From: Bacteroidota bacterium
GTDB lineage: Bacteria > Bacteroidota > Bacteroidia > Bacteroidales > JAIFNL01
Assembly (NCBI GenBank): GCA_020047755.1
Contig: JAIFNL010000182.1
Location: forward strand, 1-35,460
Direction of reading: 5' to 3'
Length of the DNA: 35,460 bases
Shown here: positions 12,981 to 30,212 of the stretch, piece by piece
Layout: each line of letters starts with the position of its first letter
Numbering within the stretch: the first letter of the stretch is position 1
Program-made: the position numbers and the translations under genes
Notes under the pieces: generated by a model
What the model was told of the DNA's origin: nothing
What the model saw: the letters and a program-made list of their open reading frames with translations, nothing else
Databases searched by the model: none

Positions 12981-13050
12981 TGTTTCTATTTTCTACTTAA
13001 TTTTGCTCCTATCTGGCGCAGCAATTTTTCTTTCAAACTCTTCTTAAGCT

Positions 13051-17283: not shown

Positions 17284-17314
17284 TTTGAAAAATAATATTT
17301 TTTACATAACTTTG
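17284..17314 (+). promoter_or_regulatory. Bacteroidota sigma-A promoter for the 86-aa gene at 17509
   Basis: TTTG (17284-17287) N19 TAACTTTG (17307-17314). Confidence 0.75.
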
Positions 17315-17340: not shown

Positions 17341-17468
17341 TTATTTAGTGTCTGAAAGAAAACACACTTTTGGGTTATGTTGAAACTCTAAAATCTTCAT
17401 TTACTTGTTTAAATTGGGGTTCTAAGATTTTAAAATTTCTCAAATTTGCTATTTTCTTTCAAATACTA
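17341..17468 (+). other. Leader inverted-arm element 1 (structured 5' UTR or MITE-like)
   Basis: AGTGTCTGAAAGAAAA (from 17347) vs TTTTCTTTCAAATACT (to 17467): 14 WC + 1 G-U of 16; inner stem TAAAATCTT (17389-17397)/AAGATTTTA (17424-17432). Confidence 0.6.
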
Positions 17469-17508
17469 TCTCTATTAATTAATTATTTTTTTTAAAAATT
17501 ATAACAAT

Positions 17509-17769
17509 ATGGGATATTACAAAACAATAGACGGCGTAAAATATGATGCCGACTTAATTGAAGCAGCTGAAACAGCAGTAGCAGGACAAGGAGATGGCAA
17601 AATTTCGTTTGAAGATGCCCAAATTCTGCTTGAAAAAGTAAAAGATGGCGACACTTACACAGATGTAGAGAAAGCTACAATGGCGTACATTCGCGAAAAT
17701 TTTAAATGGACAGAAAAAGCCGATGAGTGGTTTAGAGCTGAAATTAGAAAATGGGCTGCCACTAAATAA
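17509..17769 (+). CDS. 86-aa conserved-type protein of unknown function (paralog 1)
   Basis: Ungapped alignment to the 18174 ORF with ~50/86 identities counted by hand; EF-hand-loop-like GQGDGKISFEDA. Confidence 0.85.
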   Translation: MGYYKTIDGVKYDADLIEAAETAVAGQGDGKISFEDAQILLEKVKDGDTYTDVEKATMAYIRENFKWTEKADEWFRAEIRKWAATK

Positions 17770-17787
17770 TATTAAAATGCTGTATAT

Positions 17788-17816
17788 TAGGGATTTATCT
17801 ATTTGTTAAATCCCTA
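17788..17816 (+). terminator. Hairpin downstream of 17509 gene
   Basis: TAGGGATTTA / TAAATCCCTA perfect 10-bp stem. Confidence 0.5.
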
Positions 17817-17899
17817 TTACCGGCTTTATATAAAACAATATTTTTTTTATAAAAAGATAGTTCGCAATGCTTTTTAAGCATTCGATTTTTCTTGTTACA

Positions 17900-18138
17900 T
17901 AGTGCATGAAAGAAAACTCATAAGTATTTCTAATTTAATTGATTGATAGTATAACAAGCGATAACTTTTTTTTAAAAGTTATTTAAAATTTATCATTTTA
18001 CAATTTTTAGTGATAAAATAGTAAAGAACAATTTGGCAATTTGCTATTAGAGTTTAGAAAAAGTTGCAGAATTTTTTTTAAAATTTCGCTTCTTATCAAG
18101 CAAAGAAATGATGAATATGCGTTTTCTTTCAAGCACTA
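17900..18138 (+). other. Leader inverted-arm element 2 (structured 5' UTR or MITE-like)
   Basis: TAGTGCATGAAAGAAAAC (17900-17917) vs GTTTTCTTTCAAGCACTA (18121-18138): 17/18 inverted match; interior hairpin ATAACTTTT/AAAAGTTAT (17961-17982). Confidence 0.7.
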
Positions 18139-18173
18139 TTAAATAGCTTACAAAATAAGTTCAAACACATAAA

Positions 18174-18434
18174 ATGGAAAAACACATAATAATAGAAGGC
18201 ATTGAATATGACGCTGCTTTGATAGAAACTGCCGAAAAAGCAGTTGCCAAAAATAGTAATGGAAAAATTTCGATGGAAGATGCCGAAATATTGCTGGAAA
18301 TGATAAAAAATGGCGAAATATACAGCAATATCGAAAAAGCAACTATCGCTTATATTCGCGAAAATTACCGATGGGTGAGCGATGCCGATGTATGGCTTAG
18401 AACAGAAGTAAGAAAGTGGGCAGCTAGAAAATGA
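18174..18434 (+). CDS. 86-aa conserved-type protein of unknown function (paralog 2)
   Basis: Same length, ungapped paralog of 17509 gene. Confidence 0.85.
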   Translation: MEKHIIIEGIEYDAALIETAEKAVAKNSNGKISMEDAEILLEMIKNGEIYSNIEKATIAYIRENYRWVSDADVWLRTEVRKWAARK

Positions 18435-23548: not shown

Positions 23549-23959
23549 AGTTTTGTGTTTTTTTTTGATTCTTCAAAAATGATAGAATCTATATTATTTT
23601 GTACTTTAGATTAAATAAAAAATGAACGCAAAAATAAGCTATTATTCCTATTAATTTTTATATAATATTAACGTAAAATATTGTATTTTAGTAAATACTA
23701 AAAAAAAAGCCGTAAATAGAGCACTTTCTTTTACTTATATTGTGCTTTTAATTAAATACTTATGAGTAATTTTATTGTTGAAAAAACGAATAAAACTTTT
23801 CCGTTTTTTTCTATACTTTTTTCGTATTTTAGTTAAAATGAAGCAAAAAAATTAGTACTTTGGTTTTTTACTTAGTTTTTTCTTTTTGTATAATTTACTT
23901 AACCAAAAACTATGCAAAAAAGTTGCTTGCGATGAATGATTCTATTTTTTGTACCTTTT

Positions 23960-23980
23960 TTCTTTCAAACACTATTGAAA
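23960..23980 (+). other. Single copy of the TTTTCTTTCAAACACTATT arm motif
   Basis: TTTTTCTTTCAAACACTATT matches right arms at 18121 and 17452; no convincing left arm seen. Confidence 0.45.
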
Positions 23981-24056: not shown

Positions 24057-24323
24057 GGGCGACATTGATTTAAGATTCCGTATTTTTTAGTGATAAAATA
24101 ACAATTTAACCAAACCATTTCTTTTTAGTCGAAAGCGTTTTTTTACAAGTTTATCTTTGTTAAGTAACTATTCCGAATTATTTTATCCTTACATGTTATT
24201 TATTTATGAAAAAAAAACAAATGTAACTATTTGAAAAAAAGTGTTTTAAATAAAAAAACAAGAAACTTTTTTTTTAGAATAAACATTTTTTTACATTTGA
24301 GCCATAAAAAACCAAAAAGTTTA

Positions 24324-27666: not shown

Positions 27667-27915
27667 TGTAGATTTCAAAATCGATTTTGATTCATTTTTT
27701 TTGAATCAATTAACTTCTTCAAATCTACACTTTTTCAAGTTTTATTAAAATTACCAACATTTTTAAATGAATAGTACAATTTTAGTAAATAATATTTGAA
27801 CGTAAATCAGATTTAAGGCATTTGAAATTTTTAAAACCGCAGTTTACTTGCAGTAAACTAGGATATTAAAATTTCAAACGAACATAAAAGATGTGTTTTC
27901 TTTCAGATTCTAAAT
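27667..27915 (+). other. Structured leader of KamA-like gene with arm motif
   Basis: TGTAGATTT/AAATCTACA (27667/27721) enclosing TTGATTCA/TGAATCAA; TTTGAAATTTTTA/TTAAAATTTCAAA (27821/27866) enclosing AGTTTAC TTGCA GTAAACT; then GTGTTTTCTTTCAGATTCTAAATAA. Confidence 0.5.
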
Positions 27916-28019
27916 AAAATGAAAACAACAATGCGGTAAGTACTATTGATTGTAAAATTCTATCGTAAGCCGTTTGTTTTGGCTTTCTTTTTTTTCAAAA
28001 ACTAAATTATTTTACAAAA

Positions 28020-30212
28020 ATGCTCAAAAATAAAAGAAATAATAAGGTAGCTATAAGTTTAAAATCTTATAGAATTTTGGCTAAAATTTTAGATGAAAAT
28101 CCATTATTGGCTAAAATATTGTCTCAAAGTAAAAATGAAACAGAGGCGATGCTGGAAATAAGAGCTTTGGCATTTTCGGTATTAGAAAAAAATGAACACG
28201 CCTTGGCATATTACAAACGCGAATTGAATGGAAGACAGGCTTTTGAGAAATTAGAATGGTGTTCGATAGCTGCAATTCGTATTTTAGATTACATTGATTA
28301 TGCCGGAAAAAAGTATGTAGATTTGAATAGAAAAGGCGAGCTAATCACCAATAATCCAATGAAATATCTTTGGTTGGCAGCAAAAGATGGAACTGGAGGA
28401 GCAAGATATGGCTTTTTTGTGGATATGCTATATTTGTTTCGGCAGCTAACCGGAAAATTGCAAGAAAAAAATCCACCTAAAGAGCAGATTTTGAAATGGA
28501 TGGACAAATTTCCGTCGGGGCTCGAACCTCGAATAGTGGCAATAAGAAAAGAAAATAAAGAGCGAATTATTAAAATATTGATACGGATAATTGAAAAAGG
28601 CGAAATTAAGAGCAAAAACTATTTTTTTGAACCAGATTTATCGTACGAACAAAAGTTTTTTAAAGTATTGAAATGGTGGGATATTAGTCATTTTCATCTG
28701 AAATTTGCCATCAGAAACCCCAAATTGCTCAACGAAATGCTCGATAATTCTTTGTCGGAAGAGCTTTTGAATACCTTATACAAAGCCGAAAAAGCAGGAA
28801 TTCCATTTTTTGTAAACCCGTATTTTTTGTCGCTTATTGATACTAAAATTAACAGCTTTTCGATAGGTGCCGATTTTGCCATGCGCGATTATTTGTTTCA
28901 TAGCAAGCAGTTGGTCGAAGAATACGGCGAAATTGTTGCTTGGGAAAAAGAAGACACAGTGCAGCCCGGAAAACCAAATGCCGCAGGTTGGGTCTTGCCC
29001 TCATTGCACAATATTCACAGACGTTACCCCGAAGTAGCCATTTTGATTCCCGACACAACCGGCAGAGCTTGCGGAGGTTTGTGCGTTTCGTGTCAGCGTA
29101 TGTACGATTTTCAATCGGGGCATTTGAATTTCGATTTGAACAAACTAAAACCCAAAGAAACTTGGTTGCAAAAGCTTGACCGCTTGATGCTTTACTTTGA
29201 GGAAGATGCTCAATTGCGCGACATTTTGATTACCGGAGGCGATGCTTTTATGAGCTCAACGCCTGCGCTTCGCAATATTTTAGAGGCTGTTTACACCATG
29301 GCACTTCATAAGAAAAAAAACAACGAAAATTTGCCAGAAGGCGAAAAGTTTGCCGAAATTACCCGTGTGCGTTTGGGCACACGATTACCCGTTTATTTAC
29401 CACAACGTATTACAAACGAATTAGTTGCACTTCTTCGCGATTTTAAAAGCAAAGCTTCCAAAATTGGAATCAAGCAGTTTTTTATTCAAACACATTTTGT
29501 GTCGCCAATGGAAATAACTCCAGAAGCTTTGCAAGGTGTAAAACTTTTAATTTCAGCTGGTTGGACTGTTGCAAACCAACTTGTTTTTACCACTTCTGCC
29601 TCCCGACGTGGGCATTCGGCTAAATTGCGTAAGGTTTTGAACGACATAGGAGTGATAAATTATTATACCTTTACCGTAAAAGGTTACCGCGAAAATTATC
29701 ATAACTTTGCAACCAACGCAAGAGCCGTTCAAGAGCAATTGGAAGAAAAGGTAATTGGTTCAATACCAAAGAAATATTACGATGAAATAAAGCATTTTCC
29801 TGAAGATGCTGAAAATATGGAAGCAAAAATTGATAAAATACGAAAACTTGAAAACATTCCTTTCTTGGGAACCGATAGAAATGTATTAAACTTGCCAGGA
29901 GTGGGTAAAAGCTTAACTTTTAGAGTAATAGGCATTACTAAAGGAGGAAGACGCATACTGGAATTTGAGCACGATACTGCAAGGCATCACAGCCCAATCA
30001 TCAATAAAATGGGCAGAGTTATTATCATAGAATCAAAATCAATTGTCGATTATTTTGCCCAACTAGAAGAAATGGGAGAGGATTCGGCTGATTATGAAAC
30101 AATTTTTGGCTACTCAATAGGAGAAACCGAAAAATTAATGCCTATTTTTGAATATCCCGATTATAATTTTAAAATTACATCGAAATTTACTAATTTAGAA
30201 ATTGATTTGTGA
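28020..30212 (+). CDS. KamA-like (lysine 2,3-aminomutase family) radical SAM protein
   Basis: GRACGGLCVSCQRMYDFQSG gives CxxxCxxC; ITGGDAFMSS and RLGTRLPVYLPQRIT match the KamA core. Confidence 0.85.
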   Translation: MLKNKRNNKVAISLKSYRILAKILDENPLLAKILSQSKNETEAMLEIRALAFSVLEKNEHALAYYKRELNGRQAFEKLEWCSIAAIRILDYIDYAGKKYVDLNRKGELITNNPMKYLWLAAKDGTGGARYGFFVDMLYLFRQLTGKLQEKNPPKEQILKWMDKFPSGLEPRIVAIRKENKERIIKILIRIIEKGEIKSKNYFFEPDLSYEQKFFKVLKWWDISHFHLKFAIRNPKLLNEMLDNSLSEELLNTLYKAEKAGIPFFVNPYFLSLIDTKINSFSIGADFAMRDYLFHSKQLVEEYGEIVAWEKEDTVQPGKPNAAGWVLPSLHNIHRRYPEVAILIPDTTGRACGGLCVSCQRMYDFQSGHLNFDLNKLKPKETWLQKLDRLMLYFEEDAQLRDILITGGDAFMSSTPALRNILEAVYTMALHKKKNNENLPEGEKFAEITRVRLGTRLPVYLPQRITNELVALLRDFKSKASKIGIKQFFIQTHFVSPMEITPEALQGVKLLISAGWTVANQLVFTTSASRRGHSAKLRKVLNDIGVINYYTFTVKGYRENYHNFATNARAVQEQLEEKVIGSIPKKYYDEIKHFPEDAENMEAKIDKIRKLENIPFLGTDRNVLNLPGVGKSLTFRVIGITKGGRRILEFEHDTARHHSPIINKMGRVIIIESKSIVDYFAQLEEMGEDSADYETIFGYSIGETEKLMPIFEYPDYNFKITSKFTNLEIDL

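Follow-up and report, generated by a model that had tools for sequence, protein, structure and literature searches.

The two leaders that precede a pair of neighbouring paralogous genes in the window (here, the whole 35,460-nucleotide stretch analysed, contig JAIFNL010000182.1 of the Bacteroidota assembly GCA_020047755.1) are very probably independent, old insertions of a single non-autonomous MITE family of the ISNCY type, most likely mobilised in trans. The family is new, but elements of this kind are already known. The insertion of MITE-like elements was the alternative offered in a first-pass annotation of this DNA, and it is borne out by the identity of the ends, dispersal in multiple copies, duplicated target sites, orthologous sites that are empty, and a full-length IS that shares these ends.

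In the proposed course of events, elements with the termini GTGTTTGAAAGAAAAC...GTTTTCTTTCAAACAC, which insert at TANNTA with a 6-bp duplication, were most likely mobilised in trans by an ISNCY-type (NF033593) DDE transposase. Element 1 would have landed between the promoter and the start codon of gene 1, and element 2 between genes 1 and 2, where it may have been invaded later by another repeat.

Arrangement of the elements and genes

The features of the window are as follows (G002 is a sister genome):

17284-17314, + strand: Bacteroidota-type promoter (TTTG-N19-TAACTTTG) of the gene at 17509; pattern match, kept 5' of the orthologue in G002 and G001
17342-17347, unstranded: left target copy of element 1, TATTTA; the right copy (17467-17472) is TATCTC, 4/6, decayed
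17346-17468, + strand: element 1, a 123-bp class-A MITE, with terminal inverted repeats (TIRs) and full-length homology to the ~124-bp copies of the genome; absent in G002; strictly 17348-17466 if the duplicated TA is assigned to the target
17509-17769, + strand: 86-aa gene 1, uncharacterised family, with no Pfam or NCBIfam match above cut-off
17896-17901 and 18137-18142: target copies of element 2, TACATA and TATTAA, 3/6, decayed
17900-18138, + strand: element 2, a 239-bp TIR element, by TIR match; absent in G002; strictly 17902-18136
17943-18105, + strand: second dispersed repeat, ~165 bp, nested in element 2; right limit approximate
18174-18434, + strand: 86-aa gene 2, paralogue, 58% identity
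23958-23974, + strand: lone right end TTTTCTTTCAAACACTA, a remnant of the MITE family; absent in the syntenic gap of G002
27790-27912, - strand: element 3, a class-A MITE copy; without an equivalent in the corresponding (syntenic) gap of G002

The sequence bears out the first-pass annotation as to the arm pair before each gene, the spacing of the arms, and the promoter of the 17509 gene. The arms of element 1 (17346-17362 and 17452-17468) enclose an interior of 89 nt, and those of element 2 (17900-17917 and 18121-18138) one of ~204 nt, with gaps of 40 and 35 nt, respectively, counted between the right arm and the ATG. The pairing of 17/18 claimed for element 2 was reproduced in Watson-Crick pairs, while the 15/16 claimed for element 1 holds when one G-U pair is counted, and falls to 14/16 under strict Watson-Crick pairing. 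The predicted promoter of the 17509 gene reads TTTGAAAAATAATATTTTTTACATAACTTTG.

A single pair of arms is not very rare by chance in AT-rich DNA, given that Markov-1 sequences of the same stretch yield 0.28 chance 17-bp pairs, with at most two mismatches, per 1.5 kb. The arms exceed chance because the same arm recurs throughout the genome, where the longer consensus TAGTGTTTGAAAGAAAAC is found 129 times with at most one mismatch, against 0 for the reversed control. Where inverted arms are shared by the leaders of paralogues, then, their copies should be counted genome-wide first.

Element 3 closely precedes the gene at 28020, which, judging by its sequence, may encode a lysine 2,3-aminomutase. 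Remnants of older copies of the family, in the form of right ends that are solitary or degraded, lie at 23958-23974 and 13026-13042.

The 86-aa family itself is widespread, mostly in Bacteroidota MAGs, and has a conserved GDGRIS stretch. Scans of the protein against Pfam and NCBIfam returned nothing above cut-off, and weak sequence matches to calbindin were found in the PDB over residues 25-45. The AlphaFold model is confident (pLDDT 90), and a fold search of the PDB with this model gave no match (best E 0.9), which leaves an EF-hand-like layout unsupported.

Copy number and distribution

With at most two mismatches, the arm TTTTCTTTCAANNACTA occurs 342 times in the genome of the window, compared with 107 for the reversed pattern. 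Under the threshold of one mismatch, TAGTGTTTGAAAGAAAAC has 30 and 54 occurrences in two congeners, and 0-2 in each of 56 other genomes of the order, with 0-1 for the reversed controls. In a class-level sample of 389 genomes, the exact TIR TAGTGTYTGAAAGAAAAC turned up in the window's own genome, and in none of the other 388. High counts in the genus and 0-2 elsewhere in the order point to a family that is close to genus-specific.

Many of the arms are paired and face inward, the commonest element lengths being ~124 and ~156 bp. The copies are mostly 80-243 bp long, with TIRs of 17-18 bp, and have no coding capacity. Among the sampled copies with sufficient flank, 13/13 are intergenic by crude ORF calls, two of them lying in the window. 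The features by which a MITE is recognised are all found here, that is, a short, non-coding element with TIRs, many dispersed copies, target-site duplication, and insertion polymorphism.

Target sites and empty sites

The check for target-site duplications that the first-pass annotation had proposed gave a positive result. With the ends taken as GTG...CAC, an exact 6-bp duplication flanks 37/63 of the well-preserved copies in three genomes of the genus, against a mean of 6.6 and a maximum of 14 in 500 shuffles of the partners. The target is TANNTA, with T at -6 in 60/63 and A at -5 in 59/63 copies; given that the TA beside GTG belonged to the search pattern, the independent evidence resides in the outer TA and in the identity of the middle bases only. 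A 2-bp duplication outside TAGTG was also considered, and was replaced by the 6-bp TANNTA with ends GTG/CAC. In the window, the duplication is perfect in element 3 (TAAATA, 6 bp, at 27786-27791 and 27911-27916) and decayed in elements 1 and 2.

The sister genome G002 is syntenic with the window across the compared stretch, and has both 86-aa genes and the gene 1 promoter TTTGAAAAACAATATTTTTTGCATAACTTTG, without elements 1 and 2. At the matching place, its gene 1 leader reads ...AAATATTTACTAATTAATTATTT..., which contains TATTTA, and the window, in an alignment of the joined flanks, has TATTTA, the element, and TATCTC, followed by TATTAATTAATTATTT. The empty site of element 2 aligns only in part, the right flank having diverged. 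G002 is also devoid of element 3 and of the solitary right end at 23958, and, in the reverse case, carries one insertion that is missing from the window. The paralogues are therefore older than the insertions, and elements 1 and 2 are independent of each other.

Interiors and the nested repeat

At least two interiors are found in the genome of the window, class A (~124 bp), which has an AT-rich hairpin, and class B (~157 bp), in which the hairpin is GTTCGACCGACTTGTCGGTC... Element 1 can be aligned with class A over its full length, as can element 3, and shows 75-83% identity to the best copies. It has ~40 matches in its own genome, and is one of ~15 alignable copies of ~124 bp. The class-A alignment comprises 16 copies, with elements 1 and 3 included.

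The interior of element 2 is unrelated to that of element 1, each of them matching a different dispersed family. From around position 43 to position 206 of element 2, there are ~40 matches in the same genome, on many contigs, and the six that were examined all lack the MITE arms. This second repeat has termini of its own (TTGATAGTGTAACAA...TTACGCTATCAA), and element 2 is therefore best read as a short member of the MITE family that was invaded by a second dispersed repeat. The same ~165-bp repeat family is also present in the window at 24084-24105.

In the sister genomes (loci L116-L119, L122, and L124-L131), MITEs with the same ends have unrelated interiors, such as a CTCTGTG-rich one of ~242 bp and CCCCTTTAGGGG of ~156 bp. 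The occurrence of unrelated interiors between the same ends suggests that the interiors may have been replaced. The same ends around several unrelated interiors in three species provide a useful case for the study of MITE formation.

A probable ISNCY-type partner

MITEs usually, though not strictly by definition, share their genome with an autonomous partner. A complete IS of 1,853 bp was found in another family of the order (genome G047, locus L112, positions 589-2441), with the ends TAGTGTCTGAAAGAAAAC...GTTTTCTTTCAGACACTA, a TIR that is 17/18 identical to that of the MITE, and the target TATATA on both sides. Its one long ORF encodes 488 aa, and scores 383.7 bits against NF033593, the ISNCY family transposase (cut-off 325).

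Transposases with 57-60% identity to that of L112 are present in G038, G085, and G329. In G038 and G085, they lie inside IS of 1,848 and 1,869 bp, with the similar ends TAGTGCC..TAAGAAAA (TAGTGCCTCTAAGAAAAC and TAGTGCCACTAAGAAAA), and a third homologue (L174) has similar ends, as read by eye.

The MITE ends and target thus agree with those of an autonomous IS of the NF033593 family, and a DDE transposase of this type, represented here by the relative from another family of the order, is the likeliest agent of their movement in trans. No ISNCY transposase was found in G000, G001, or G002, which are draft MAG assemblies that may lack one, and it has perhaps been lost from the genus, or was not assembled. 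A search of plasmids for the transposase recovered distant ISNCY matches only (<60%). In the literature searched, no MITEs paired with ISNCY-type elements turned up.

The leaders as RNA and the alternative explanations

The predicted leader RNAs fold better than their shuffles (z = -3.7 for element 1 and -5.5 for element 2), each paralogue has one, and element 1 lies 3' of a conserved promoter, all of which would favour the principal reading of the first-pass annotation, that is, a riboswitch-like or autoregulatory cis-regulatory RNA belonging to the 86-aa gene family. This good folding is explained by the terminal inverted repeats alone, however, and the arm pair is missing from the leaders of G002, G001, and 30 further members of the family, while dozens of copies are found elsewhere in the genome. 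Covariation is minimal, with an RNAalifold term of 0.05 and double changes in 3/28 pairs, which shared transposon ends would also produce; the pair count exceeds the shuffles in score, yet rests on few events. An Rfam scan returned nothing for the leaders at the gathering threshold, only a tRNA. The absence of the elements from the orthologous sites refutes a family-wide RNA element, and a regulatory RNA belonging to these genes is now highly improbable. Even less credence is due to the copying of the arms together with the gene, in which one leader would have been duplicated alongside its paralogue. The paralogues are neighbours, and their arms are the same and lie at a similar distance, but the unrelated interiors belong to different dispersed families, and the element-free paralogues of G002 refute a joint duplication of gene and leader.

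Element 1 follows a predicted promoter, which is conserved within the genus, and precedes the start codon; it is therefore probably transcribed as a 5' leader hairpin, as a side effect. By analogy with the Correia elements of Neisseria, in which RNase III is reported to cleave the transcribed copies at their TIRs (PMC10969869; PMC2229807), this hairpin is a possible target of RNase III, or may be neutral. The long-stem fold of element 1 within the predicted leader, together with this cleavage, would suit MITEs exapted as transcribed hairpins that determine, for both paralogues, how stable the mRNA is or how well it is translated. This seems unlikely, however, since element 1 is losing the match between its arms (14/16 pairs) and between its target copies, a different repeat has split element 2, and the sister species manages without the elements. 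More doubtful still is the broader proposal that ISNCY-type MITEs found across the genus were recruited as leader hairpins that tune the paralogues jointly, with interiors that arose through the repeated capture of DNA. Insertion of non-autonomous MITEs remains the preferred reading, and a false lead, the candidate RNA regulator, is replaced by a family of mobile elements with a named transposase type, a target, and empty sites.

Relation to known elements

The IS982-derived MITE of Cardinium (PMC9769881) is an example of a bacterial MITE derived from an IS, and is likewise short, non-coding, multicopy, and restricted to a lineage, with TIRs shared with a full-length IS. The present family differs in having a partner IS of the ISNCY type, which turned up in a different family of the order only, and several unrelated interiors between the same ends. 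The NF033593 ISNCY elements also have ends in GTG(C/T)..., and short palindromic TA..TA target duplications, although the MITEs lack the transposase; L112 and its relatives are ~1.85 kb long, and have an AAGAAAA sub-terminal motif. In Rhizobium, ISRle10, which is annotated as ISNCY, also ends in GTGCC, but its TIR differs beyond this motif, its target duplication is longer, and its transposase is ~27% identical to that of L112.

The Correia/NEMIS elements of Neisseria, which are 100-160 bp long, are likewise MITEs with TA-containing ends, with no relation claimed between the TIR sequences, and they are sometimes transcribed as hairpins with neighbouring genes (PMC2229807; PMC10969869). In the Bacteroidota, the BrickBuilt MITE of Porphyromonas gingivalis (PMC4596501) is similarly intergenic and restricted to its species, but is made up of 23-nt tandem repeats, unlike the MITEs described here.
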